A program made the position numbers and the translations under genes. Positions 1-17,345 of a stretch of 64,000 nt of DNA are shown here, piece by piece (position 1 is the stretch's first letter; every line of letters starts with the position of its first letter). The stretch comes from Spirodela intermedia (Eukaryota > Streptophyta > Magnoliopsida > Alismatales > Araceae): assembly GCA_902729315.2 (NCBI GenBank), contig LR746268.1, positions 2,501 through 66,500 on the forward strand, written 5' to 3'. The notes under the pieces are model-generated. The model was given only the letters and a program-made list of their open reading frames with translations. It did no database searches and was not told where the DNA came from.

Positions 1-107
1 AATATCTTTCTATTGACTGGGTGAAATTTCATTATTTTTAGTTCAATAGAATCGTATTTGCCTCGTTTACCATTCTCTCTTCTATATCATTTTTATTTGA
101 TGCTTAG

Positions 108-2858
108 ATGATGAGTAGTTCACAGATTTCATCGGGTGACCTCCGTCGCCCAGATGAAAAATCGCCCGACGAATGCGAGCGAACAGGAGGCCGACACGTG
201 GCAGTAACGGCCTCCTGTCTTCGCCTTCTCTCTCCGCCGGTTGATGTAACCGAGGAGACGGCCGTAACCGAGGAGCTGAACGGTCGAACCACGGACGTCC
301 GTGATTCGCCATCAGCTGGCGTCTTCCCGAGACCCGAATCGGAGGGGACAGCAGTTGACGCCGTCCACTCTCTCTTCGGGAACGAGGCGACGGCAGGCGA
401 AGAGGCCCCCTCTGATCCAACCATTGATCGTATGATCAATGGTCAGAATCAGCCGGCTATAAAGGCGTCAACAGCCGTTACCGAGGCACCGCCCTCGGAC
501 GGCCACGGCCATAACGCCGAACCAGATCCAACCGTTGATCTTGAGATCAACGGAGGGGATCACGTGGCCATAAAGGCGCCGCAACTTTTTGCGATCGCCG
601 ATGCCTCGGCTGGGACGCTGGTGACGTCATCAACGTCAGACACGGTGGACGTAGCGCCACCTGAGGTCGTTTTAGCCCAGGTCATGCCGGCCCAGCCCAG
701 CGAGGCTGCGCTGGCTCAGGACGTACAGGCACAGGCCCAGGTGGCCCAGGCCCAGGCCCAGGTGGCCCAGGCCCAGGCCCAGGTGGCCCAGGCCAAGCCT
801 GAACAGCCGGCTCAGGCTGCACCGGTCCAATCTCTTGCCCAGGCAAGGGGCAAGAGCCTGCGGCCCAAAAAGAAGATAGGACGCCGACTTTTACGTCCCC
901 CCTCGGCTACGTCCTCTAAGCCTACCTCGAGTCAACAAATCGAACCAACTAGGATCCCAACACTAGTTGAGACACCTATATTGACCCCAAACGCATCCAT
1001 TGGGCACACTATTACACCTAGTGGGCTAGACTCTACTGTGCCCCATAGGCCAAACCCGACTATACCCACTAGACACCTATCATGGGCGCAACGAGTGTCT
1101 AACCCCTTTGTCCCCTCCACAAAGACTGTCACACCACAGGAACCGCTACGTCATGTACTATTCCCAATCTATGATACCACTGTCCCAGTGCGAAGCTATA
1201 GCGATGATGATGGGAGGAGGACAATAGCTTTTACTTATGAGGAGGTCTCCCAGATGGCAGCCGCATTCCAATATACCTTAGTTGGTCGTTTCACTACGAA
1301 ACGACCAACCATAGGTGACATAGAGAAGATTTACATGGCACCTGGAAATTTTCAGGGCCGAGTCTCCATCGGAGCTCGAGACTATCGTAGCATATACATC
1401 CGCTTTGAGCTAGAAGCGGATTATCGCCGAGCATGGAGCCGACCCACTTGGAGAATGGGGGAGTCTACCCTCCATACCCACAGATGGACACCACAAAATG
1501 ACATAGGGCACCAAGCACATCAGTCTCATGTGGTTCCATTATGGGTGGGCTTCCCTGGCCTACCTGCTCATTTATTTACGCCAAAGGCACTTGAGTCTTT
1601 GGCAAATGCGGTGGGAACATTCATATGCCTTGATCCAGGCGTAAAAATGTTCAACCGACCCGGATATGCACGAGTTTGTATAGAGGTGGACCTAATGGCT
1701 CCCCTCCAGAGGACTCTCGTTATACGTAGTGGAGATGATGAACTTTATCAGCCCATCATTTATGAGAGACTACCGTATTTCTGCACACACTGTGCGATCT
1801 TGGGCCACACTGTCAGCACATGCCGTCAGAAGGCATGTACACCACAGACGACCACACGAGCCTTTCTAGTACCGATCTCATATGACGATTACCTCGTCGA
1901 AATGAGAAAGGATGCTCAGAGTGCTCGTCATCCTCAGAGGTCGATTGCCCCTATGGCGGCTCCACCTTCCTTACCTCGGAAGGCACAAGAGAAGCCTAGC
2001 TCACTGATTGAGACACAGCATACACGGCGAAAGCCGGCAGCTGGACGCCCTTCTTCCACCTACACAGGGGGGAAGAAAGGAACACGAGAGGCTACACCTT
2101 CCCCTTTGAGCAAGGGAAAGCAACCCCTAACCTCAAACACCTTCGAGGTCTTAGGGGCTTTAGATGAGAGAGACTTTGAGGGACCTGCACAAAGGGGAAC
2201 TAGGCCTTCCAAAGGGCTAGCATCCTCCACTACGAGGGACTCACCTAGTCCAACCCCCCATACTAGATCCCCCCGGGTTATCCGACCCCCCATACTCACC
2301 CACCCCACTCCACCCATTAGTGTCTCTCCACCACCCAGCTCCTCCCCGCCCATTCACTCGTCCCCACGTAGAAGGAGTCCTTCACCTCTTAGTCCCCACC
2401 GACCGAGGTCTACCCCTTTCTCTGAGGGTATAGGCTTGGGCCCTATCCATCCGCCTCAAATCCCCGTTGATGATCTATTAGGAGGGTCTACCCCCAGCAT
2501 ACTTCCTATTAGTACATCTTACATAGCCCCCCATTCTGATTCTTATACCCTCCCCCCCTCTCCCCTATTACAACCGTCAGATCAGTTTCCTATACTTGAT
2601 CCACCACCCGCTGATTCTAGGGAGAGCCCCGATAGAGGACAGTGCTTAACGAATCGTCAAGCACCACACCCATCCTCCTCATCTAGTGCTCATGATACTA
2701 CGGGCCACACGACTAGTACCCATGAGGATGGTAGCTCTGAGACTGACATTGAGACTACCTACCCAGAGGAGGGATATCAGACAGAGGTTAGGACCACACG
2801 ACTCACTAGACGCTCACCTTACTCCACGAGATCTAGGACTCGTGGGGCCACTCACTAG
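108..2858 (+). CDS. LINE ORF1 protein (DUF4283 and zinc knuckle)
   Basis: 916 aa, intact. It is the RNA-binding partner of LINE ORF2 in the ribonucleoprotein. An N-terminal low-complexity half includes an Ala-Gln repeat of seven residues, about three copies, near residues 208-230 (bases 729-795). A DUF4283-like domain follows at about residues 370-540, then a CCHC zinc knuckle near 560-575 (C-x2-C-x4-H-x4-C, CTHCAILGHTVSTC). The C-terminal third is rich in Pro and Ser, as is common in plant LINE ORF1. The start is the first ATG of a tandem ATGATG. The stop TAG is followed after one codon by the ORF2 ATG in the same frame. Confidence 0.93.
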   Translation: MMSSSQISSGDLRRPDEKSPDECERTGGRHVAVTASCLRLLSPPVDVTEETAVTEELNGRTTDVRDSPSAGVFPRPESEGTAVDAVHSLFGNEATAGEEAPSDPTIDRMINGQNQPAIKASTAVTEAPPSDGHGHNAEPDPTVDLEINGGDHVAIKAPQLFAIADASAGTLVTSSTSDTVDVAPPEVVLAQVMPAQPSEAALAQDVQAQAQVAQAQAQVAQAQAQVAQAKPEQPAQAAPVQSLAQARGKSLRPKKKIGRRLLRPPSATSSKPTSSQQIEPTRIPTLVETPILTPNASIGHTITPSGLDSTVPHRPNPTIPTRHLSWAQRVSNPFVPSTKTVTPQEPLRHVLFPIYDTTVPVRSYSDDDGRRTIAFTYEEVSQMAAAFQYTLVGRFTTKRPTIGDIEKIYMAPGNFQGRVSIGARDYRSIYIRFELEADYRRAWSRPTWRMGESTLHTHRWTPQNDIGHQAHQSHVVPLWVGFPGLPAHLFTPKALESLANAVGTFICLDPGVKMFNRPGYARVCIEVDLMAPLQRTLVIRSGDDELYQPIIYERLPYFCTHCAILGHTVSTCRQKACTPQTTTRAFLVPISYDDYLVEMRKDAQSARHPQRSIAPMAAPPSLPRKAQEKPSSLIETQHTRRKPAAGRPSSTYTGGKKGTREATPSPLSKGKQPLTSNTFEVLGALDERDFEGPAQRGTRPSKGLASSTTRDSPSPTPHTRSPRVIRPPILTHPTPPISVSPPPSSSPPIHSSPRRRSPSPLSPHRPRSTPFSEGIGLGPIHPPQIPVDDLLGGSTPSILPISTSYIAPHSDSYTLPPSPLLQPSDQFPILDPPPADSRESPDRGQCLTNRQAPHPSSSSSAHDTTGHTTSTHEDGSSETDIETTYPEEGYQTEVRTTRLTRRSPYSTRSRTRGATH

Positions 2859-2861
2859 ATC

Positions 2862-5800
2862 ATGATACCTAGCATCATATGGAATTGTCGAGGTATAGGC
2901 AACCTCGAAACCCAATTCTATATCGCTAGCCTTATCAGACAGTATCGACTAGGTATAGTAGGCCTCATTGAGCCTATGATATCACCAGATCGTATCCAAC
3001 CCTTACTTAGGAGGTTAGGTATGGATCATTTTCACTCCAACCCCACGAATCATATTTGGATCTTTTGGACTAGACCATACTCTATGGAGTTGCTAGTCGA
3101 GGGACCCCAGCATATCACTATGACGGCTCGAGATCTCACCCAAGAGTTCACCTTCTCGGTCATCTATGCATCACATAGATCCGAAGAAAGAGAAACTCTT
3201 TGGGCGGACCTAGTTCAATACGTGAGGGATTACCCTACACTAGTTGAGTCTCCTTGGTACCTAGCAGGTGACTTCAACTGTGTCCGTAATACTAGTGAAC
3301 GTCAAGGTGGGCGAATCCCTAGGGCCCGTAACATGGAGATGTTCAATGATTGTATTTTTCGATTAGCTCTTATTGAGCCACCTACATCAGGCGAGGCATG
3401 GACGTGGAGCAACAATCGAGGGGACGCTTTGATTTATGAGCGTATCGATCGTTGTTTCATCAACAGCATCGCCATGATGCGACATCCCATATTAGTCACG
3501 ATATTACCCCGTTATAGGTCAGATCACACCCCGATCCTCATACTCCCTAAACAGAGTATGAGCACCCACAGACCCCCCTTCAGATTTCAAACCATGTGGC
3601 TCCAACATGAAAACTTTCAGAGTTTCGTACGGAATCACTGGTACGGACAGATCTCAGATTCTCCTATGGAGAACCTTAGCTATAGGTTAAGGAATCTCAA
3701 ACTCCACCTTAAATGGTGGAACCGACATATCTATGGGAATGTCCATACCCAAGTTGATGCATTGCAAAAAGAGTTAGCAGAAGTTGAAAGACTACTGCAA
3801 GCTAGATATTCAGATGCTGCTTGGGAAAGGAGGAGTAGAGTGAGTGACCAGCTTGATGAGGTTGTGCGACGACAAGAGTTATTCTATCTCCAGAAATCAC
3901 GCATCCAGTGGTTACAAGAGGGTGATAGAAACACTCGTTTCTTTCATGCCTCGGTCGCTCATCGCTCACGTTCAGATTATACCTCTCTTTTAGAGACATA
4001 TGATCATGACCTTTCCCGCATGCAGGAGGCAGGGGTTGAGTACTTTCGTACTCTCTTAACCTCTCAGCCGATTGAGATTTCTGATGATATGCTCACTTCG
4101 ATCCCATCATTGGTCACTCACCGTGAGAACTCTCTCATAACAGCCATACCCACGGGAGAAGAGATCAAGGAAGTAGTTTTCTCTATGAGCAGACATCGTG
4201 CACCCGGGCCAGATGGTTTCTCAGCTGATTTTTACATTTCATGTTGGGATATCGTTGGCACTGATCTCATCCAGGCCATCAAGGAAATCTTTCGTCGTAA
4301 ACTCTTTACACGAAGTTGGAAGGCCACCTTCCTTGCACTTATACCGAAGGTGACTACCCCAACCTCATTTAGAGACTTTCGACCTATCAGTTTGTGTAAC
4401 GTGTGTTATAAAGTTGTATCTAAGATCGTTACACGTAGATTGAGTAGTTTCCTTGATAGACTTATATCTCCAGAACAATGCGGATTTGTCAAGGGACGGT
4501 ACATTCACGATAACATCATGCTAGTACATGAACTAGCACAGTCCCTTGGCCATGATTGTCGAGGCTCTAACATCATCATCAAATTAGACATGGAGAAGGC
4601 CTTTGATAGGATAGAGTGGAGTTTCCTCATTAAGGTTCTTAGATGCTTTGGGTTCACCGACGACTTCATTGACTTAGTCGATGCATGTGTTAGGGAGAAT
4701 CATTTCTCTTTATTAGTGAACGGTAGCTCCACACCATTCTTCACGGCCACGAGAGGTCTACGACAGGGCGATCCACTATCACCCACCCTCTTCATCTTAG
4801 TTGAAGAAGTCCTCAGTCGATCCCTCACCCGAGCGATCAATCAAGGACTTATCCGACCATACTACTCGAAGAGGGGTTGCCCGATCATCTCACACTCCCT
4901 CTTTGCTGATGATGCGATACTCTTCCTCAATGGATGTGAGACATCCATTAGAGGGCTCATGAGTATTATCTCGAGGTATGAGCGAGCTGCAGGTCAACTC
5001 GTAAATGCCTCGAAGAGTAGCTTCATAGTAGGCCCTTCTACCCCCATAGGGACCATACGACGCATCTAGGGCCTAACAGGGTTCTCTCGTGGACACTTAC
5101 CTTTTGACTATCTAGGATGTCCTATCTTCCTCGGCCGTAGGCGCATACACTATTTTGACGTCCTAGTGGGCAAGTTGAGGAAGAAACTAGCAGGATGGAA
5201 GTTACAACTTCTATCCCCTGGAGGACGGATCCAGTTGATACGCCATGTCCTCATGAGCATACCATTACACCTTTTGGCAGTCCATGAGGTACCAGACACC
5301 GTCTTACAGACTATTAGACGGATATGCACGTCCTTCCTTTGGGATGGACAACTTGAGGGACCTCGTCGTCAACGCCGAGTTTCTTGGGAGAAAGCATGTC
5401 GACCTACGGATGAGGGTGGCCTAGGTATTAGGCGCCCTCAAGATGTACTTAACATGCTTCAAAAGAAACTCATTTGGAGGATGAGGACCACACCATCGGT
5501 GCTAGGTACTTTTGTGTCAGCCAAATATGGTGAGTGGGCTCGACAGCCGGCTGACATCAAAGGAGTCAAACGATGGGCAGACTGGCAGCGACATTGGTTG
5601 GAGATGGTGCCTCTTATTCGTTGGCGAGTGGGGCGAGGCGAGATCAGTGCCTGGTACGACACTTGGCTAGAGGACACACCATTGGCCTGTTTTACCACTT
5701 TCACATCTTCTTGGCCTCGCTTGACGGTAGCCCAGCTTCTCCAAGGAGACACTCGTCTACTTATTGAGAGGCATGGACTACCGTTGGACTTGTTACCAGC

Positions 5801-7058
5801 CATCACCATGATTGAGATGAGTTTTACTGAGGACCAACCCATCTGGACACTTACCATAGATGGCAGTTTCTCTTGTAGCTCTTCTTGGGAGCACTTTAGA
5901 AACCGCTCCCCAAAGACATTTTGGGGAAATCTCATATGGCATCCGGCCATCACACCTCGTGTTTCATTCTTCCTGTGGAAGTTCATGCACCGAGGACTAC
6001 CCACCGACGATCGAGTGATTGTCACCGATCAGGAGGTGGAAAGGAAATGTCATTGTTGCTCCATCACGACAGACGAAAGTATGGAACATTTATTTTTCCA
6101 TAGTGATATCACTGTCGAGTGTTGGCGTCAACTTCTAGCGAATTGGCTTCCAATGCTCTCGTACAGACCTACGAGACCACCACTAGAGGTCTTTAGAAGA
6201 GTCTTTGACTCACCGACGAGTGTCAAGGTTTGTCCTTTCATCCGTATCTCCATAGCATATACGTTATGGGAAATATGGAAGGGAAGTAACTCATCTCGAT
6301 ATGCAGGCCAAGTGATGCGTGCCACAGAGATTATGAGGCACGTAACACAATGGCTTCGGAGTACTCATTCCTTAGTGTCAAATAAAACGAAACGCTCGCG
6401 TTCTATTTGTGAGGCTTTTGGGCTTTGGGGACTCCATATCATACCTACACAGACCTGGACTACTGTCCGATCTGTTAGATGGACACCACCGAGGGCTGGA
6501 CAGTGGAAACTCAACGTCGACGGAGCATCTCAAGGCAACCCAGGATCATCTGGAGGAGGCGGTATCTTACGCGATAGTACAGGATGCATTCTCTTTGCCT
6601 TTTCGAACTTTTATAATATACAAACTAACACTGTGGCAGAGGCTATGGCAATACGGGATGGTTTGTTTCTTTGTGAGGAGCAAAATATTACTAACATTGT
6701 CTTAGAATCTGATTCCAAAGTGTTAGTGGACATGTTACGTGCAGACTCTTGTCCTCATTGGAGGCTCAAGAATATCTGGGCAGACATCATGCGATGTCGA
6801 GGACGCATCACAACTATTACGCATCAATTCCGAGAAGGGAATCAGACAGCTGACGCCCTTGCTGCGCATGGAGTCAGATCGCATCGGAGGACAGTCTTCT
6901 CTTTTTGGCAGGACATGCCCCTGGAAGCCCGAGGTGCTCATAGACTTGAGCGACTCGGCATACCCTCTTTACGCATACACCGCACTCCACTACCGACCTC
7001 TCCACGACAGTGGCGTATTGCTTGGAGGAGATCAGGGGTGGTTACTATTGGCCGCTGA
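2862..7058 (+). pseudogene. LINE ORF2 polyprotein (EN-RT-RNase H), one nonsense codon
   Basis: 1399 codons in a single frame, broken only by TAG at 5067-5069, where copy 2 has CAG. Domains in order: APE-type endonuclease at residues 1-230 (NCRGIGN, AGDFNC, YRSDHTP); reverse transcriptase at about 420-750 (APGPDGF, LIPKV, LDMEKAFDR, GLRQGDPLSP and the catalytic FADD box); an HHCC-type zf-RVT region near residue 1050 (FFLWKF, CHCC, EHLFFH); and RNase H at the C-terminus (NVDGASQGNPG, AEAM, ESDSK, TADALAAHG), with all four acidic residues present. The stop falls after the FADD motif, so the protein would be cut before the zinc region and RNase H. The change CAG to TAG is a single transition. Confidence 0.95.
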
Positions 7059-8226
7059 AGACCACAATGGAGATACAGCACAACACGGACAACAAGGCAC
7101 ATCGTAATCCACTCGGGTACATTACTTCCAATCATTACTCTCCTCATAATCACATCACATCTACTATCTATCATGCTTAAGTAGTGAGGACATAGAACTA
7201 TCAGCATATGTTGGCATCGGCCCACTTTTGAACTATAGGTCTATAGCACATCAGATCTGCCAAACTAGTTGTGAATCGGCAACCTAGCACCTCTCTCAAG
7301 ATCTTATTAGTACCATCAGCCAGCTTGAACCCATGAGAAGGTAAAGATCTATATCCATAGGATTGACCCTCTCTCCTCTCTCTCTCTCTCGATTCTCTAT
7401 TTCTTTCTCCCTCCCTTTCTCTCTCTAGGAAAAAAAAAAAAAAAAAAAAAAAAAGACAGCCTACTTCTTTTCCCGGAATCACTAGCCCATCATAGACAAT
7501 TAGTGGAGGGTGAGGGAAAGGGCCCTAAAACCAAAAAAAAAAAAAAAAAAAAAGGGCAACCTTTTTCCCTTCCCTTAATCACTAGCCTAATGTACACCAA
7601 ATAATGGGCATTAGTGGAGGGTAAAAGAAGAGGCCCTCAAGGAGAGAGAAAGAAGAGAGAGAGAATAAGAGAAAAGAAAAGAGTTAGAAAAAGAGACCAA
7701 GTCATTCCTCGTGGGGTGAAAGGTCCCTTATCTACTTAGAGGAAGTACGGCAACTGATGGTACTAACAAGATCTTGGCTAGAGGGATTAGACGCGTGCAA
7801 CACTAGGAAGGCAAGTTCATATTTGGGCTTATTGTCATACTCTAGCATAGTTCTATCTTCCTCACTGCCCTAACAACTATTTTCTCACCACTTTATATCA
7901 TATTATTTATTTCTTAGAACCACTTACTGCAGCAAACTCTTGTCTTGCAGGAACACCTCATGGCGCACAACATGGAGGTCTACACGTCCTACTACTGTTG
8001 AAAAGATCTTCCACCTTTCATGAACTCAAAGGCTCTTTCAGCCCAATGCAAATCAACCGCCTTCTTCAAATATGATGAGCACGCTAGAGTCTATCTCCAG
8101 TATTATCACATCCCCTCTTCAAAAGAGGTCTTTAATTCTCCATGTCATCCTCGCCCATTGTGCGAATGAGATCCCACTTATGTAACCTCAAAATGAGGTC
8201 AAACTTTTATCACTCAATCAAATTTA

Positions 8227-8258
<32 letters not shown>

Positions 8259-8260
8259 AA
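7059..8260 (+). other. LINE copy 1 3' untranslated region with internal A-tracts
   Basis: About 1.2 kb of non-coding 3' sequence. It holds a CT-rich tract (7371-7428), an internal A-tract (about 7431-7454) and a second (about 7533-7552). Each A-tract is followed by a related block containing 'aatcactagcc', 'attagtggagggt' and 'gggccct' or 'aggccct', so the middle looks like an imperfect tandem duplication that includes its A-run. The element ends in T-rich then A-rich sequence (8226-8260). The same layout recurs at 11741-12963 in copy 2. Confidence 0.8.
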
Positions 8261-8418
8261 CCCTAAACCCTAAACCCTAAACCCTAAACCCTAAACCCTA
8301 AACCCTAAACCCTAAACCCTAAACCCTAAACCCTAAACCCTAAACCCTAAACCCTAAACCCTTAAACCCTAAACCCTAAACCCTAAACCCTAAACCCTAA
8401 ACCCTAAACCCTTAACCC
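8261..8418 (+). repeat. Telomeric repeat tract 1, (CCCTAAA)n
   Basis: About 158 bp of plant-type telomere repeat, C-strand on the plus strand, with one or two CCCTTAAA variants. It abuts the poly(A) of LINE copy 1 on the left with no spacer. On the right it abuts the truncated 5' end of LINE copy 2. Confidence 0.97.
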
Positions 8419-11400
8419 GAATGTCCATACCCAAGTTGATGCATTGTAAAAAGAGTTAGCAGAAGTTGAAAGACTACTGCAAGCTAGATATTCAGATGCT
8501 GCTTGGGAAAGGAGGAGTAGAGTGAGTGACCAGCTTGATGAGGTTGTGCGACAACAGGAGTTATTCTATCTCCAGAAATCACGCATCCAGTGGTTACAAG
8601 AGGGTGATAGAAACACTCGTTTCTTTCATGCCTCGGTCGCTCATCGCTCACGTTCAGATTATACCTCTCTTTTAGAGACATATGATCATGACCTTTCCCG
8701 CATGCAGGAGGCAGGGGTTGAGTACTTTCGTACTCTCTTAACCTCTCAGCCGATTGAGATTTCTGATGATATGCTCACTTCGATCCCGTCATTGGTCACT
8801 CACCGTGAGAACTCTCTCATAACAGCCATACCCATGGGAGAAGAGATCAAGGAAGTAGTTTTCTCTATGAGCAGACATCGTGCACCCGGGCCAGATGGTT
8901 TCCCAGCTGATTTTTACATTTCATGTTGGGATATCGTTGGCACTGATCTCATCCAGGCCATCAAGGAAATCTTTCGTCGTAAAGTCTTTACACGAAGTTG
9001 GAAGGCCACCTTCCTTGCACTTATACCGAAGGTGACTACCCCAACCTCATTTAGAGACTTTCGACCTATTAGTTTGTGTAACGTGTGTTATAAAGTTGTA
9101 TCTAAGATCGTTACACGTAGATTGAGTAGTTTCCTTGATAGACTTATATCTCCAGAACAATGCGGATTTGTCAAGGGACGGTACATTCACGATAACATCA
9201 TGCTAGTACATGAACTAGCACAGTCCCTTGGCCATGATTGTCGAGGCTCTAACATCATCATCAAATTAGACATGGAGAAGGCCTTTGATAGGATAGAGTG
9301 GAGTTTCCTCATTAAGGTTCTTAGATGCTTTGGGTTCACCGACGACTTCATTGACTTAGTCGATGCATGTGTTAGGGAGAATCATTTCTCTTTATTAGTG
9401 AACGGTAGCTCCACACCATTCTTCACGGCCACGAGAGGTCTACGACAGGGCGATCCACTATCACCCACCCTCTTCATCTTAGTTGAAGAAGTCCTCAGTC
9501 GATCCCTCACCCGAGCGATCAATCAAGGACTTATCCGACCATACTACTCGAAGAGGGGTTGCCCGATCATCTCACACTCCCTCTTTGCTGATGATGCGAT
9601 ACTCTTCCTCAATGGAGGTGAGACATCCATTAGAGGGCTCATGAGTATTATCTCGAGGTATGAGCGAGCTGCAGGTCAACTCGTAAATGCCTCGAAGAGT
9701 AGCTTCATAGTAGCCCCTTCTACTCCCATAGGGACCATACGACGCATCCAGGGCCTAACAGGGTTCTCTCGTGGACACTTACCTTTTGACTATCTAGGAT
9801 GTCCTATCTTCCTCGGCCGTAGGCGCATACACTATTTTGACGCCCTAGTGGGCAAGTTAAGGAAGAAACTAGCAGGATGGAAGTTACAACTTCTATCCCC
9901 TGGAGGACGGATCCAGTTGATACGCCATGTCCTCATGAGCATACCATTACACCTTTTGGCAGTCCATGAGGTACCAGACACCGTCTTACAAACTATTAGA
10001 CGGATATGTACGTCCTTCCTTTGGGATGGACAACTTGAGGGACCTCGTCGTCAACGCCGAGTTTCTTGGGAGAAAGCATGTCGACCTACGGATGAGGGTG
10101 GCCTAGGTATTAGGCGCCCTCAAGATGTACTTAACATGCTTCAAAAGAAACTCATTTGGAGGATGAGGACCACACCATCGGTGCTAGGTACTTTTGTGTC
10201 AGCCAAATATGGTGAGTGGGCTCGACAGCCGGCTGACATCAAAGGAGTCAAACGATGGGCAGACTGGCAGCGACATTGGTTGGAGATGGTGCCTCTTATT
10301 TGTTGGCGAGTGGGGCGAGGCGAGATCAGTGCCTGGTACGACACTTGGCTAGAGGACACACCATTGGCCTGTTTTACCACTTTCACATCTTCTTGGCCTC
10401 GCTTGACGGTAGCCCAGCTTCTCCAAGGAGACACTCGTCTACTTATTGAGAGGCATGGACTACCGTCGGACTTGTTACCAGCCATCACCATGACTGAGAT
10501 GAGTTTTACTGAGGACCAACCCATCTGGACACTTACCATAGATGGCAGTTTCTCTTGTAGCTCCTCTTGGCAGCACTTTAGAAACCGCTCCCCAAAGACA
10601 TTTTGGGGAAATCTCATATGGCATCCGGCCATCACACCTCGTGTTTCGTTCTTCCTGTGGAAGTTCATGCACCGAGGACTACCCACCGACGATCGAGTGA
10701 TTGTCACCGATCAGGAGGTGGAAAGGAAATGTCATTGTTGCTTCATCACGACAGACGAAAGTATGGAACATTTGTTTTTCCATAGTGATATCGCTGTCGA
10801 GTGTTGGCGTCAACTTCTAGCGAATTGGCTTCCAATGCTCTCGTACAGACCTACGAGACCACCACTAGAGGTCTTTAGGAGAGTCTTTGACTCACCGACG
10901 AGTGTCAAGGTTTGTCCTTTCATCCGTATCTCCATAGCATATATGTTATGGGAAATATAGAAGGGACGTAACTCATCTCGATATGCAGGCCAAGTGATGC
11001 GTGCCACAGAGATTATGAGGCACGTAACACAATGGCTTCGGAGTACTCATTCCTTAGTGCCAAATAAAACGAAACGCTCGCGTTCTGTTTGTGAGGCTTT
11101 TGGGCTTTGGGGACTCCATATCATACCTACACAGACCTGGACTACTGTCCGATCTGTTAGATGGACACCACCGAGGGCTGGACAGTGGAAACTCAACGTC
11201 GACGGAGCATCTCAAGGCAACCCAGGATCATCTGGAGGAGGCGGTATCTTACGCGATAGTACAGGATGCATTCTCTTTGCCTTTTCGAACTTTTATAATA
11301 TACAAACTAATACTGTGGCAGAGGCTATGGCAATACGGGATGGTTTGTTTCTTTGTGAGGAGCAAAATATTACTAACATTGTCTTAGAATCTGATTCCAA

Positions 11401-12913
11401 AGTGTTAGTGGACATGTTACGTGCAGACTCTTGTCCTCATTGGAGGCTCAAGAATATCTGGGCAGACATCATGCGATGTCGAGGACGCATCACAACTATT
11501 ACGCATCAATTCCGAGAAGGGAATCAGACAGCTGACGCCCTTGCTGCGCATGGAGTCAGATCGCGTCGGAGGACAGTCTTCTCTTTTTGGCAGGACATGC
11601 CCCTGGAAGCCCGAGGTGCTCATAGACTTGAGCGACTCGGCATACCCTCTTTACGCATACACCGCACTCCACTACCGGCCTCTCCACGACAGTGGCGTAT
11701 TGCTTGGAGGAGATCAGGGGTGGTTACTATTGGCCGCTGAAGACCACAATGGAAATACAGCACAACACGGACAACAAGGCACATCGTAATCCACTCGGGT
11801 ACATTACTTCCAATCATTACTCTCCTCATAATCACTCACATCTACTATCTATCATGCTCAAGTAGTGAGGACATAGAACTATCAGCATATGTTGGCATCG
11901 GCCCACTTTTGAACTATAGGTCTATAGCACATCAGACCTGCCAAACTAGTTGTGAATCGGCAACCTAGCACCTCTCTCAAGATCTTATTAGTACCATCAG
12001 CCAGCTTGAACCCATGAGAAGGTAAAGATCTATATCCATAGGATTGACCCTCTCTCCTCTCTCTCTCTCTCGATTCTCTATTTCTTTCTCCCTCCCTTTC
12101 TCTCTCTAGGAAAAAAAAAAAAAAAAAAAAAAAAAGACAGCCTACTTCTTTTCCCGGAATCACTAGCCCATCATAGACAATTAGTGGAGGGTGAGGGAAA
12201 GGGCCCTAAAACCAAAAAACAAAAAAAAAAAAAAAAAAAAAAGGGGCAACCTTTTTCCCTTCCCTTAATCACTAGCCTAATGTACACCAAATAATGGGCA
12301 TTAGTGGAGGGTAAAAGAAGAGGCCCTCAAGGAGAGAGAAAGAAGAGAGAGAGAATAAGAGAAAAGAAAAGAGTTAGAACTAGAGACCAAGTCATTCCTC
12401 GTGGGGTGAAAGGTCCCTTACCTACTTAGAGGAAGTACGGCAACTGATGATACTAACAAGATCTTGGCCAGAGGGATTAGGCGCGTGCAACACTAGCAAG
12501 GCAAGTTCATATTTGGGCTTATTGTCATGCTTCAGCATAGTTCTATCCTCCTCACTGCCCTAATCACTCTTTTCTCACCACTTTATATCAATTTATTTAT
12601 CTCTTAGAACCACTTACTGCAGCAAACTCTTGTCTTGCAGGAACATTGCATGGCGCACAACATGGAGCTCTCGTCCTACTCCTGTTGAGCAGATCTTCCA
12701 ACTTTCATGAACTCAAAGTTCAACCCAATGCAAATCAATCACCTTCCTCAAATATGATGAACGCCTTGGAGCCTATCTCCAGTATCATCACATCCCCTCT
12801 TCAAAAGAGGTCTTTCATTCTTCATGTCATCCTCGCCCCTTGTGCGAATGAGATCCCACTTATGTAACCTCGGAATGAGGTCAAACTTTTATCACTCAAT
12901 CAAATTTCTTCTT

Positions 12914-12963
<50 letters not shown>
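8419..12963 (+). mobile_element. LINE copy 2, 5'-truncated
   Basis: A copy of the same LINE family starting at the position equivalent to 3737 of copy 1. It lacks ORF1, the endonuclease and the start of the RT region. It runs through the RT, zinc, RNase H and 3' UTR to a long poly(A) (about 12916-12963). The 5' junction is blunt against CCCTTAACCC repeat and the 3' poly(A) runs straight into telomere repeat. No target-site duplication can be assessed because both flanks are telomeric. The 3' UTR differs from copy 1 at more sites than the coding region does. Confidence 0.95.
8420..11740 (+). pseudogene. LINE ORF2 fragment (RT, zf-RVT, RNase H)
   Basis: The open frame equals copy 1 ORF2 from its mid-region to the C-terminus, with the same RT motifs (LDMEKAFDR, GLRQGDPLSP, FADD) and RNase H motifs. 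It has TAA at 8447-8449 (CAA in copy 1) and TAG at 10958-10960 (TGG in copy 1). It keeps CAG where copy 1 has its own stop. Being 5'-truncated with no promoter or ORF1, it is a dead copy. Confidence 0.95.
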
Positions 12964-12966
<3 letters not shown>

Positions 12967-13096
12967 AAACCCCTAAACCTAAACCCTAAACCCTAAACCC
13001 TAAACCCTAAACCCTAAACCCTAAACCCTTAACCCTAAACCCTAAACCCTAAACCCTAAACCCTAAACCCTAAACCCTAAACCCTAAACCCCCCTA
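12964..13096 (+). repeat. Telomeric repeat tract 2, (CCCTAAA)n
   Basis: About 130 bp of CCCTAAA repeat between the poly(A) of LINE copy 2 and the first 5S-derived unit. The first two or three units are imperfect (CCTAAA, CCCCTAAA). The rest are regular, with one CCCTTAA. Confidence 0.96.
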
Positions 13097-13647
13097 AGTG
13101 GGAGAGTTGCCACCGGATCCCATAAGAACTCCGGAGTTAAGCGTGCTCGGGTGGGAGCAGTCACCGGATGGGTGACCTCCCTGGGAAGTCCCAAGGTACA
13201 TGTGCAAGCGTTGCGAGACGCTTGCTCTGCATGTGCTGAAAGGCGCCGCTGCATTATCGTGCCACCAAGCACATGTTACGAACCCCTCCAACACCATGCC
13301 AAGATGCCTCAAGTTTCGAAGAACGTGTCGAGAGACACCCCTGCCACCATGCCGAGAGGCATATGTGGCAACCATCTCACCATGCCAAGACGCCCTCAGC
13401 TCCGAAGAATGTGCCGAGAGGCACCCCTGCCACCATGCCGAGAGGCATATGTGGCATCCATCTCATCATGCCAAGACGCCCCAGCTCCGAACAATGTGCC
13501 GAGAGGCACCCCTGCCACCATGCCGAGAGGCATATGTGGCATCTATCTCCGAAGAATGTGCCTGAGAGGCATCAAAGTGCTTGGGGATGTGAAGTACCGG
13601 GATGAGTGACATCCCGAGAAGTTCGGCCCAAGACAGTTATCCCAAAA
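13097..13647 (+). mobile_element. 5S rRNA-derived SINE-like unit 1
   Basis: The unit starts 'agtgggagagttg' and continues into 5S rRNA-like sequence (13110-13195): ACCGGATCCCAT, the A-box-like AGTTAAGCGTGC and the C-box-like GGATGGGTGACCTCC then GGGAAGTCCC. A non-5S middle follows. Near the 3' end (about 13577-13630) is a second 5S-like 3' half (gtgcttgggg, gggatgagtgac, gagaagttcgg). It ends in a short A-run (five A) before CCCTAAA. The 5S internal promoter elements, A-tail and repeated occurrence fit a Pol III-transcribed short retroelement. The first 26 or so bases of normal 5S rRNA are not recognisable, so it is not a 5S gene. Confidence 0.75.
13325..13557 (+). repeat. 86-bp tandem repeat inside unit 1
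   Basis: Copies begin at 13325, 13411 and 13496 (spacing 86 and 85) with a shortened fourth junction at 13558. The repeated core includes 'gtgccgagaggcaccc' and 'ccgagaggcatatgtggc'. Units 2 and 3 have only a single copy, so this is an expansion within unit 1. Confidence 0.85.
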
Positions 13648-13733
13648 ACCCTAAACCCTAAACCCTAAACCCTAAACCCTAAAACCCTAAACCCTAAACC
13701 CTAAACCCTAAACCCTAAACCCTAACCCCCCTA
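13648..13733 (+). repeat. Telomeric repeat tract 3, (CCCTAAA)n
   Basis: About 86 bp of CCCTAAA with one CCCTAAAA variant. It lies between the 3' A-run of 5S-derived unit 1 and the start of unit 2. Confidence 0.95.
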
Positions 13734-14124
13734 AGTGGGAGAGTTGCCACCGGATCCCAAAAGAACTCCGGAGTTAAGCGTGCTCAGGTGGGAGCAGTCA
13801 CCAGATGGGTGACCTCCCTGGGAAGTCCCAAGGTACGTGTGCATGCGTTGCGAGACGCTTGCTCTGCATGTGCTGAAAGGCGCCGCTGCATTATCGTGCC
13901 ACCAAGCACGTGTTACGAACCCCTCCAACACCATGCCAAGATGCTTCAAGTTTCGAAGAACGAGAGACACCCCTGCCACCATGCCGAGAGGCATATGTGG
14001 CATCTATCTCCGAAGAATGTGCCTGAGAGGCACCAAAGTGCTTGGGGATGTGAAGTACCGGGATGGGTGACCTCCCGAGAAGTTTGGCCCAAGACAGTTA
14101 TCCCAAAAAAAAAAAAAAAAAAAA
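13734..14124 (+). mobile_element. 5S rRNA-derived SINE-like unit 2
   Basis: Same architecture as unit 1: a 5S-like head (13747-13830 with AGTTAAGCGTGC and GATGGGTGACCTCC), a middle with only one copy of the 86-bp motif, a second 5S-like 3' half (about 14034-14090, GATGGGTGACCTCCC) and an A-tail of about 20 A (14105-14124). The tail is followed directly by CCCCTAAACCC. Confidence 0.78.
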
Positions 14125-14210
14125 CCCCTAAACCCTAAACCCTAAACCCAAAACCCAAAACCCTAAACCCTAAACCCTAAATATTAAAACCATAAACCCT
14201 AACCCCCTTT
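14125..14210 (+). repeat. Degenerate telomeric repeat tract 4
   Basis: About 86 bp of CCCTAAA with several decayed units (CCCAAAA, CATAAACCCT, ATATTAAAA). It is less regular than tracts 1 to 3. Confidence 0.9.
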
Positions 14211-14559
14211 AGTGGGAGAGTGGCGACCGGATCCTTTAAGAACTCCGGAGTTAAGCGTGCCCGGGTGAGAGCAGTCCTTGGATGCATGACTTCCTTGGGA
14301 AGTCCCTGGGTACGTGCACGTGTCGCGTGACGCTTGCTGTGCATGTGCTGAAAGGCACCCCCACCATGCCAAGACACCCCCAGCTCCGAAGAACGTGCCG
14401 AGAGGCACCCATGCCACCATGCCAAGAGGCGCTAGTGGCATCTATCTCCGAAGAATGTGCCTGAGATGCACCAAAGTGCTTGGGTGTGTGAGGTACCGAG
14501 ATGGGTGACCTCCCGAGAAGTTCGGCCCAAGAGAGTTATCCCCGAAAAAAAAAAAAAAA
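14211..14559 (+). mobile_element. 5S rRNA-derived SINE-like unit 3
   Basis: The most diverged of the three: the 5S head reads ACCGGATCCTTTAAG and 'gatgcatgacttcc' replaces the C-box consensus. The 3' 5S-like half (GATGGGTGACCTCCC near 14498-14512) is well kept. It ends in about 15 A (14545-14559) and then CCCTAAA. Divergence rising from unit 1 to unit 3 agrees with unit 3 being the oldest. Confidence 0.75.
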
Positions 14560-14578
14560 CCCTAAACCCTAAACCCTG
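14560..14578 (+). repeat. Telomeric repeat tract 5 (short)
   Basis: About 2.5 units of CCCTAAA immediately after the A-tail of unit 3. To its right the sequence becomes AT-rich gypsy-derived DNA, so this marks the inner end of the telomere and retroelement array. Confidence 0.9.
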
Positions 14579-14639: not shown

Positions 14640-17345
14640 TTCTAGAGTATTTATGCTGGTTAAAAAAGAGAATGTTTCTTCGAATTATTCTGGTGTTATA
14701 CTTGAGGCAGCACAAAATATGTTAAATGAATTTTCTATCACAAAAGATTCTCTTATAAATCTTCTTCAACTCAAGGACATACAACATCATATAGACTTGA
14801 TTTCTGGAACAAGTTTACCAAATTTACCTCATTACACAACGAGCCCTAAGGAGAATAAGATTTTACAACAACAAGTTGAAGAGCTATTAGAGAAAGGATT
14901 AATTTGTGAAAGTATGAGCCCATGCTCAGTACCTGTATTATTATTTCTAAAAAAAGATGGAACCTATCGAATGTGTGTAGGTAGTAAAGCAATTAACAAA
15001 ATCACAGTAAAATATAAATTTCCAATTCTAAGACGATGATATACTTGACATGTTGTGTGGTTCCATAATTTTCTCCAAAATTGATCTTAAAAGTGAGAAT
15101 CATCAAATTCAAATTTGTCCAGGTGATGAATAGAAAACTACTTTCAAGATGAAAGTAGGACTGTATGAATGATTGGTTATGCCATTTGGCTTATCTAATG
15201 CCCCAAACACTTTTATACAAATGACGAATTAGATATTGAAGTCTTTTATTAGAAAAATTGTTGTTGTCTATTTTGAGATATTTTGATATACAATTCACAA
15301 AAGAAGAACACCATCATTATTTTAGATCTGTATTGACTATTTTACAACAAAATGAGTTATTTATCAACTTGAATAAATGTAAATTTCTTACTTCAAGTTT
15401 AGTTTTTCTGAGATATACTGTAAGTGCAGATGACATCAAAGTGGATGAAGAAAATATTGAAGCTATTAAAGACTGGCCAATTCCAAAGAATATACATATA
15501 TTCTTAGTTTTCATAGCTTAGCATCTTTTTATAGAAGATTTATTTGAGATTTCAGTTCAATTATGGCTCCCATCACTAAGTGCATGAAAAGATAAAACTT
15601 TCAGTGGACAGATGTAACATATAGAAGTTTTATTCTAATTAAAAATAATAATAAGTTATGCCCCTATACTAACATTGGCAAATTTTGATAAATTATTTGA
15701 AGTGGAATGTGATGTCTCAATTATTAAAATTAAACTTGTATTATCCCAAGAAGATCGTCTAGTAACTTTTTATAATGAGAAGTTAACAAAAGCTAGAAGA
15801 AAGTAAATTACATATGAGTTAGAATTTTATATTGTGGTTAGATCATTACATACTTGAGAACACTACTTGATTCAACGAGAATTTATTTTATTTACTGACC
15901 ATCAAGCTTTGAAATTAGTCAATAGTCAGACCACTATCAATAGAATACATTCTAGATGGATTTCATTTATTCAAAAGTTTTCTTTTGTGATAAAGCACAA
16001 ATCAGAAAAATCAAACAAAGTGGTTGATGCATTGAGCCGAAAATCAACATTTTTTATTACAATGAGAGGAGAAGTTAATGGTTTTGAATATTTGATAGTA
16101 CTCTATGCAGAAGATGAAGATTTTGCTGAAATATGGTATATGTGTAAACAAGGCAAACCATCTAAAGGATTTCACATTCTTGACGATTACATAGTTTGAG
16201 AAAATCAATTATGTATCCCTTGAACTTCTTTGTGTGAGAAGTTAATTCGAGAACTACATGTAGGACGACTTGGGGGGCATTTAGGCTGTGACAACACTTT
16301 GAAAATGATGGAAGAATGATATTATTGGCCACAGCTTAAAATAGAAGTTGAAAGTTTTGTATGAAGATGTCAAATTTGTCAAGCTAATAAAGGACAGTGC
16401 CAAAACACAGGTTTGTACACTCCACTACCCATTCCAAATAAAGCATAGATTGACATTTCTATGGATTTTTTTTTGGGACTACCATGTACCCAAAGAGAAG
16501 CATATTCTATTTTTGTGGTTGTGGATAAATTCTCAAAGATGGCACATTTTATTTCATGTAAAAAGACTATTGATGTTGTTCTAGTAGAAAATTTACTTTT
16601 CAAGAAAATAATTTGTTTGCATGGAGTGCCTAAGACTATTACATCTAATAGAGACTCAAAATTTTTGTCTCATTTCTGGTGTACTTTTTGGAACAGATTT
16701 GACTCATACCTAAAATTCAGTACTACAAGTCATCCACAAACTAATAGTCAAATAGAAGTGGTTAACAAGACACTTGGTAATTTAATCCGTTGTATTTTAG
16801 GAGACAAACTAAGACAATGAGATCTTGTCCTAGCTCAAGCCAAATTTGCATATAATTCTATGGTAAACTGGTCTTCAAGTTACTCTTCATTTTTTATTGT
16901 CTACTATTTTCTAGCAAAAGTCCATCTTGACTTGATTGAAGTACCAAGAAAACTTGGTACTAGTGTAGTAGTAATAACATGGCAGAATACATCCAAACAA
17001 TACATGAGAATGTGAAGAAATATCTTACAACCAATTATGCAAACTATAAGGAAAAGGTAGACAAAAAAAGAAAGAAAATCTTTGAAGTTGGTAATTTGGT
17101 TATGATATACTTGAGAAAAGAACGATTGTCATCAAAAAATTATCACAAATTCAGTTCACAAAAGTATGGTCTATTTAAAGTCCTTCAAAAGATTGATTGA
17201 TGACAATGCATATGTCATTAACTTACTAGAGACAATGGGAATATCATCTACATTCAATGTTATAGATATCTATGAGTATTATCCAAAGCAAATTACAAAC
17301 TCCAAGATGAGTCCTTTTCAAGAAGGGGAGACTGATGCAGCCCAA
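14640..17345 (+). pseudogene. Degenerate Ty3/gypsy pol (RT, RNase H, integrase)
   Basis: Pieces of a gypsy polyprotein in several frames with many stops. RT: NLPHYTTSPKENKILQQQVE, MCVGSKAINKI, then MPFGLSNAP (15181-15207) and a damaged VVYFD box. RNase H: LFTDHQALKLVNSQ and a conserved VVDALSR. Integrase: an HHCC zinc region near 16250-16400 and a core near 16461-16820 ([33 protein letters not shown]). A C-terminal tail follows (LRKERLSSKNYHKF, then ISSTFNVIDIYEYY). No LTR pair, primer site or gag was found nearby. It cannot encode an active element. Confidence 0.92.

Follow-up and report, generated by a model that had tools for sequence, protein, structure and literature searches.

The telomeric retrotransposons HeT-A, TART and TAHRE of Drosophila stand head-to-tail with their 3′ tails toward the centromere, and their addition is primed by the chromosome's 3′ end. 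In silkworm and Tribolium, the TRAS and SART long interspersed nuclear elements (LINEs) are stacked within telomerase-made repeats and carry an endonuclease that cuts between the T and the A of the repeat (PMC4700185; this and all other papers are cited here from parts of their text). TRAS and SART belong to the insect R1 group (PMC10088271), and the Drosophila elements are described as targeting the 3′-OH (PMC5738225). Human L1, a general LINE, can prime on dysfunctional telomere ends independently of its endonuclease (PMC3649969; PMC4700185). In the green lineage, the LINE Zepp piles up at the telomeres of Chlorella vulgaris; we compare it through a listing of telomeric retroelements in which it is the only Viridiplantae case, and which, in the part cited, covers insects, Giardia, Chlorella, a fungus, a lizard and rotifers and no land plant (PMC10088271). 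Here we describe, in the duckweed Spirodela intermedia, an array of two copies of a LINE and three 5S-rRNA-derived units that resemble short interspersed nuclear elements (SINEs), all set in CCCTAAA telomere repeats, and we trace its relatives across the assembly.

The array lies at the start of the window, the 64,000-nucleotide stretch C5:2501-66500. Position 1 faces the chromosome end, as the first-pass annotation had proposed from the letters alone: only 2.5 kb of contig C5 lies to the left of the window. That annotation also reported five elements in a single orientation, and this is what we find, with every 5′ end toward the tip (Table 1). From the tip inward, the 3′ A-runs of 22, 49, 5, 20 and 15 bases all pass into CCCTAAA repeats, though only the first 5S unit has so short a run as A5, and two tracts open differently, that after LINE copy 2 with CCTAAA and that after the second 5S unit with CCCCTAAA. 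The tracts themselves measure 161, 132, 84, 81 and 21 bp, lengths that include up to four A's of the preceding tail, and unrelated DNA follows. Exact (CCCTAAA)2 occurs 43 times in the window, against a maximum of 0 across 100 shuffles. The 5′ truncation point of LINE copy 2, which is 97.8% identical to copy 1 over the shared part, also adjoins a telomere tract, again as claimed. Position 108, in contrast, is where ORF1 (open reading frame 1) of LINE copy 1 starts and not where the element does: by comparison with a second locus (L027), its leader begins ~241 bases upstream of window base 1.

The assembly holds 136,496,439 bases in 32 contigs, of which C1-C18 are chromosome-like in size (n = 18); below, L and R after a contig name mark its left and right ends. 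It appears to correspond to Spirodela intermedia clone 8410, whose published Nanopore/Illumina assembly measures 136.6 Mb, with LINEs making up 0.37-0.49% of the sequence; the passages of that paper on LINEs, SINEs and telomeric sequence make no mention of LINEs located at telomeres (PMC7645714).

When the whole assembly was searched for poly(A) running into telomere repeat, as the first-pass annotation had suggested, the junction proved to be frequent. Exact A10-(CCCTAAA)2 gave 54 matches and the reversed pattern, our control, gave 0; with up to 3 mismatches there were 218 matches against 3. The opposite junction, A10-(TTTAGGG)2, gave 7 matches (control 3); each carried 3 mismatches, and in no case was the A10 intact. 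We analysed the positions of 100 of the 218 places and found 81 less than 30 kb from a contig end, on 29 ends, with the tail inward in 78 of the 81, and 19 deeper inside; when the zone was widened to 60 kb, 84 had the tail inward, 4 were opposite and 12 lay deeper. As matches within one array are not independent, p-values exaggerate the bias, and we regard the number of separate ends as a safer measure.

The elements themselves show the same bias, and arrays recur with the predicted orientation and junction on both chromosome arms. A single 31-base pattern (up to 3 mismatches), which misses older copies, located 69 LINE 3′ ends, 29 of them within 30 kb of a contig end, a 50-fold excess in a zone that makes up 0.84% of the genome. 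Head-to-tail order with the 5′ end toward the tip is expected of end-primed elements, and within this zone it is shown by 28 of the 29 LINE 3′ ends, spread over 21 ends, and by 63 of the 68 terminal 5S 3′ ends (95 in all), on 24 ends. A block shared by C1R and C6R means that a few terminal matches there are counted double. Activity has been recent at many ends: when 40 of 103 candidate LINE bodies were scored against window:4600-5050, 18 fell into the youngest class (at least 98% identity), and 15 of these are terminal, on 12 ends and with the tail inward in 15 of 15, whereas 3 are interior; the zone count covers these 18 of the 40 scored.

The first-pass annotation placed the youngest element leftmost, and the 5S units of the window agree, since identity to unit 1, taken by piece, falls from 90-95% in unit 2 to 72-89% in unit 3. 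For LINEs the trend is weak: the outer copy scores above the inner one at C16L, C10L, C6L and C4R, the reverse holds at C9L and C30, and C5L, the source of the query, is unusable.

At the left, we read the outer 10 kb of C1-C18 and C30, 19 ends in all, many of which open with a stretch of N. At 12 of the 19 (C1, C2, C4, C5, C6, C8, C11, C12, C14, C16, C18 and C30) the outermost readable element is a plus-strand LINE piece, and at C7, C9, C15 and C17 it is a 5S unit or an older fragment. A minus-strand LINE fragment comes outermost at C10 (146 bp, followed by a plus-strand LINE) and at C13 (190 bp, 78%), and the readable part of C3 held no element. Right-end pieces at C3, C4, C5, C9, C14 and C16 carry their elements on the minus strand, matching prediction. 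One terminal A-run/telomere junction, ~29 kb into C9 (L034), is opposite in orientation, and at the left end of C17 (L025:6750-9999) we observed an inverted subtelomeric block with older LINE and 5S pieces in opposite orientation.

Long CCCTAAA tracts are present at C9L, C11L, C12L, C13L, C3R and C16R. Most inner tracts fall in the range 12-224 bp, against 1.3-1.4 kb at C9L and 1.1 kb or more at C13L for the longest tracts on the distal side; beneath a young LINE at C14R the inner tract reaches 866 bp. A10 followed by at least 70 nearly clean tract bases gave 21 matches, ten of them with 0-1 mismatch, among them the C1L, C4R, C5L and C14R junctions; other matches lie mostly inside terminal tracts. 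Full-length LINE 5′ junctions, searched with one exact leader sequence, were found only on C30 (four matches at two distinct places), a search that misses variants, such as one at C7L, and the unreadable outermost stretches of several ends. The telomerase RNA-binding domain has 1 match in the assembly, at 109 bits. In a long telomere tract at the right end of C8 (C8:6030709-6034257), A10TTTT and A12TT stand before TAAACCC or AAACCC, possibly tiny insertions of A-tail only.

Table 1. The telomeric array of the window, listed from the chromosome tip inward (window coordinates).
Feature	Position	Strand	Details
LINE copy 1	1..8260	+	5′ leader, ORF1 108-2858, ORF2 from 2862, 3′ UTR (untranslated region), A22 at 8239-8260
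CCCTAAA tract between LINE copies 1 and 2	8261..8418	+	
LINE copy 2, 5′-truncated	8419..12963	+	begins at equivalent of ~window 3737; A49 at 12915-12963
CCCTAAA tract	12964..13086	+	first repeats degenerate (CCTAAACCCCTAAA)
5S-derived SINE-like unit 1	13087..13648	+	~three copies of 86-bp internal repeat, A5
CCCTAAA tract	13649..13723	+	
5S-derived unit 2	13724..14124	+	A20
CCCTAAA tract, degenerate	14125..14200	+	
5S-derived unit 3, most diverged	14201..14559	+	A15
Innermost CCCTAAA tract	14560..14577	+	unrelated DNA beyond

Just inside the array, the DNA at window 14820-17300 looks by eye like a degenerate Ty3/gypsy retrotransposon with many stops.

The LINE has DUF4283 in ORF1 and Exo_endo_phos, RVT_1, zf-RVT and RVT_3 in ORF2, all above their Pfam cut-offs, with zf-CCHC_4 and RNase_H just under theirs. 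By these domains it has the usual plant L1-type layout, that is, a separate ORF1 and an ORF2 with APE-like endonuclease, reverse transcriptase, zinc-binding and RNase H-like domains. In LINE copy 1, ORF2 is interrupted by an in-frame stop, and its second piece runs from 5166 to 7058. The element ends 3′ in an A-tail, A22 and A49 in the window and A13 to A44 in the copies retrieved elsewhere. Among the 76 protein matches listed, the nearest shares 76% identity across 83% of the query and sits in an 8.8 kb ENA contig; the remaining 75 reach at most 44% identity. At the C9 left end, ~3.9 kb of a ~66-bp GC-rich tandem repeat (GGCCTG-like; L017:1399-5293) separates the terminal telomere from a 5S array, and this repeat bears a weak similarity to a repeated stretch of the LINE ORF1.

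Four interior LINE copies (L038-L041) were read with both flanks and their target-site duplications judged by eye. Duplications are plausible in three of the four: 15 bp and exact at L038, 12 bp with one mismatch at L039, where the deduced nick, TTT/AG, is telomere-like, and 5-13 bp at L040, depending on the choice of element start. The flanks of L041 contain no clear duplication, and telomere repeat is absent from the junctions of all four. L041 is itself young, 97-100% identical to the window LINE over most of its length. Because interior copies carry ordinary duplications, the family also uses ordinary target-primed insertion; its nuclease, on this evidence, looks unspecific, and the family is telomere-biased rather than telomere-exclusive. 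The same dispersed repeat follows L041 (C12:1.97M) and another young interior LINE, L042 (C9:5.28M), so that either a composite was copied twice or a target is shared. In an old LINE at C6:5.65M (L031:1240-1261) and a 5S unit at C11:8.29M (L033:1164-1183), a short CCCTAAA tract occurs on the tail side only, and these are perhaps displaced former chromosome ends. A further candidate junction, L032, was rejected: its A-run stands beside two telomere repeats without any LINE or 5S match, and we take it to be perhaps a telo-box promoter motif.

For the small elements, no Rfam family reached its gathering score anywhere in the window. Below the gathering cut-off of 38, 5S_rRNA (RF00001) matched unit 1 at 35.2 bits (E 3.6e-05) and unit 2 at 30.8 bits (E 5e-04), in both cases over the full model, and gave no match to unit 3 at E <= 1. 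The 5S rRNA-like head of units 1 and 2 includes the internal promoter region, a putative promoter here. The first-pass annotation held that the 5S units abut CCCTAAA at their starts, and the starts are indeed telomere-like (AACCCCCCTAAG, or AACCCCCTTTAG in unit 3), yet they are conserved between units. In 38 distinct unit starts, the ten bases preceding GTGRGAGAG are mostly ACCCCCCTAA (14) or ACCCCCCTTA (5), and the tract outside the head joins it in several phases (CCC, CCCT, CCCTAA and CCCTAAA). The head, sought with up to 2 mismatches, occurs at 76 places; 14 lie over 60 kb from any end, and one of these, at C15:4.11M, is exact. Since the head is conserved, occurs in the interior and meets outer tracts of varying phase, it probably belongs to the 5S element as its own 5′ end. 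A unit's cDNA would then end ...TTAGGGGGGTT, plausibly a primer for telomerase; alternatively, the head bases could be remnants of capping carried inside. In the single interior 5S copy read (L033), we saw no clear target-site duplication.

The junctions bear on what primed these insertions. We tabulated 46 of them from the retrieved loci, leaving out junctions whose A-run falls short of 8 or whose first repeat is more degenerate, among them those of window 5S units 1 and 2; L007 and L008 are one double, L031, L032 and L033 are interior, and the trio C5L/C4R/C14R counts once. The tail passes into the repeat as A(n)-CCC in 39 of the 46 rows (38 of 45 without the double), as A(n)-CC in 6 and as A(n)-T in 1, where chance would give A(n)-CCC in 4/7 (p 6e-5 on 46 rows), and no row has an A-run leading into TTTAGGG. 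A primer with T, TT or TTT at its end would leave just this phase, and human L1 particles depend on a 3′ overhang and work best on primers that end in T (PMC3649969). Together with the near-single orientation, the junction shows that the tails are copied from the telomere G-strand. Retrotransposition primed by that strand, at an end or at a nick, is very probably the source of the arrays.

As to which of the two supplied the primer, we lean narrowly towards the chromosome's own 3′ end, which seems somewhat likelier than a nick. The A-tail of the LINE RNA or of the 5S-derived SINE RNA would pair with the T's at the 3′ end of the G-strand (...TTTAGGGTTT-OH), and the LINE reverse transcriptase would copy the RNA outward, leaving the tail facing inward and the 5′ end facing the tip; the SINE RNA presumably borrows the LINE enzymes. 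Telomerase would then add TTTAGGG repeats onto the new cDNA end, and the cycle could repeat. A fuller version, in which a generalist L1 LINE and a 5S-derived SINE extend chromosomes from the true 3′ end, telomerase re-caps them and the SINE has gained a 5′ end (AACCCCCCTAAG) whose cDNA primes telomerase, is one that we offer tentatively and regard as rather doubtful.

Several observations weigh against end-priming. Of the LINE 3′ ends, 40 of the 69, without orientation bias (19 on the plus and 21 on the minus strand), and of the 5S 3′ ends, 27 of the 95 lie beyond the 30 kb zone; the first-pass annotation had named elements mostly in non-telomeric DNA with normal target-site duplications as evidence that would refute it, and these 40, with plausible duplications in three of the four interior copies read, bear that out in part. 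Widening the zone to 60 kb gives 32 LINE 3′ ends inward and 4 opposite (4/36), with 33 further in, and 70 5S 3′ ends inward and 6 opposite (6/76). With its endonuclease domain the LINE could make nicks, and cleavage of the G-strand at TTT/A would yield the same junction and orientation. The 866-bp inner tract shows that insertion did not need a short telomere, the telomere-like 5S head blurs where capping begins, we saw no molecule whose new element lacked a cap, and recombination among ends has moved sequence.

The closest competitor is target-primed insertion into double-stranded telomere repeats, the TRAS/SART mode, in which the G-strand is cut at TTT/AGGG by the endonuclease of the LINE, the nick primes cDNA synthesis and attraction to telomere chromatin produces the excess at ends. 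We consider this a substantial possibility, though not the likelier one. A free 3′ end and a TTT/A nick both give a T-ended primer, so that phase and orientation are the same for both, and the LINE does possess an endonuclease domain. Interior copies show ordinary nick-type insertion, with a telomere-like nick in one of the four (L039, by eye). Inner tracts run from 12 to 866 bp, with an intact telomere kept outside the elements. However, the interior insertions show the nuclease not to be telomere-specific, which obliges this model to assume a further attraction; an unspecific nuclease would not alone explain the terminal excess of young copies, and it is for this reason that we favour the chromosome end. 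Most inner tracts, moreover, reach a small fraction of the length of the longest distal ones, unlike what random insertion into a long telomere would leave. Taken as decisive proof of end-priming, these short tracts fail, weakened as they are by the tract at C14R. The chromosome-end-primed model of the first-pass annotation is partly supported: it stands in its junctions, orientation, recurrence and mostly terminal recent copies, and the chromosome end is somewhat likelier as the primer than a nick.

Recombination offers another account, in which exchange or copying between ends, by way of shared telomere tracts and elements, dispersed a few old telomeric insertions that also multiplied in place. 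LINE copy 1 is, by its identities, a mosaic: against C1L, C4L, C8L, C16L, C18L and C30 its body shows ~97-100% identity (95.7 in one bin), over its last ~650 bases identity is 100% to C4R and ~91-93% to other young copies, and its last 326 bases recur identically at C14R. A T12A22 tail is common to C5L, C4R and C14R. The 5S array at C9L has a near-regular spacing of ~555 bp (552-559 bp in 5 of 7), better explained by tandem amplification, and the right ends of C1 and C6 (C1:11404979-11446527 and C6:10108313-10149861) share a block with equal match spacing that is either a segmental duplication or an assembly copy. On C30 (L027:8498-9041) a LINE leader is joined to a 5S 3′ half and then to a second LINE leader, with no tract between the last two, a chimera that may reflect template switching. 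Recombination is thus reshaping the arrays and adding to the terminal pattern. As the main source of that pattern we nevertheless find it improbable: ends differ in the length of the A-run, the truncation point, the subfamily and the inner neighbour, which argues that many insertions were separate events, and the interior target-site duplications show that the family retrotransposes. Misjoining of repeats at contig ends is more improbable still, to the point of being hardly credible. Chromosome ends do pose difficulties for assembly, and many read N in their outermost part; yet the corresponding published assembly drew on Nanopore reads at 191x and gives telomere sequence for each end of its 18 molecules (PMC7645714), the orientation is correct on both arms, and each end has distinct sequences.

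Compared with the systems introduced above, the duckweed elements work like TRAS/SART, HeT-A or end-primed L1, yet by the features tested they are not members of TRAS/SART or HeT-A. They share head-to-tail order and centromere-ward 3′ tails with the Drosophila arrays, which lack telomerase repeats; the duckweed elements all sit on TTTAGGG, in a genome with a telomerase domain. TRAS and SART target the telomere repeat specifically, whereas most LINE 3′ ends here (40/69) are interior, with ordinary duplications in three of the four copies read, and the domain content (DUF4283 in ORF1, RNase H in ORF2) is plant L1-like and not that of the R1 group. Endonuclease-independent priming by human L1 is an effect of mutant cell lines, and here the arrays are natural and repeated. 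Zepp differs in that its host is an alga, and we know of no SINE partner for it. The 5S rRNA-derived SINEs of fish, moths and fungi have the same 5S-like head and 3′ A-tail, but the duckweed unit is concentrated at telomeres; among the papers listed by a literature search for such SINEs in plants, none concerns a plant SINE family by its title. By title or abstract start, no telomeric LINE of a land plant appeared among the papers listed by searches of the open-licence PMC literature, a scope that does not extend to preprints and is not proof of absence, and the part of a barley paper cited mentions telomere-specific LINEs for Drosophila only (PMC5738225). Stacking at telomeres is itself known elsewhere; what appears to be new is a telomere-biased LINE of L1 type together with a 5S-derived SINE in a land plant.

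A flowering plant that has telomerase-type repeats and yet stacks LINEs and a SINE on many of its ends would show that a generalist L1 needs no telomere-specific nuclease to settle in telomeres. A long-discussed step, LINE priming from the chromosome's own 3′ end, would become testable in nature, in a clonal, fast-growing plant suited to studying how telomerase and retrotransposons share chromosome ends.

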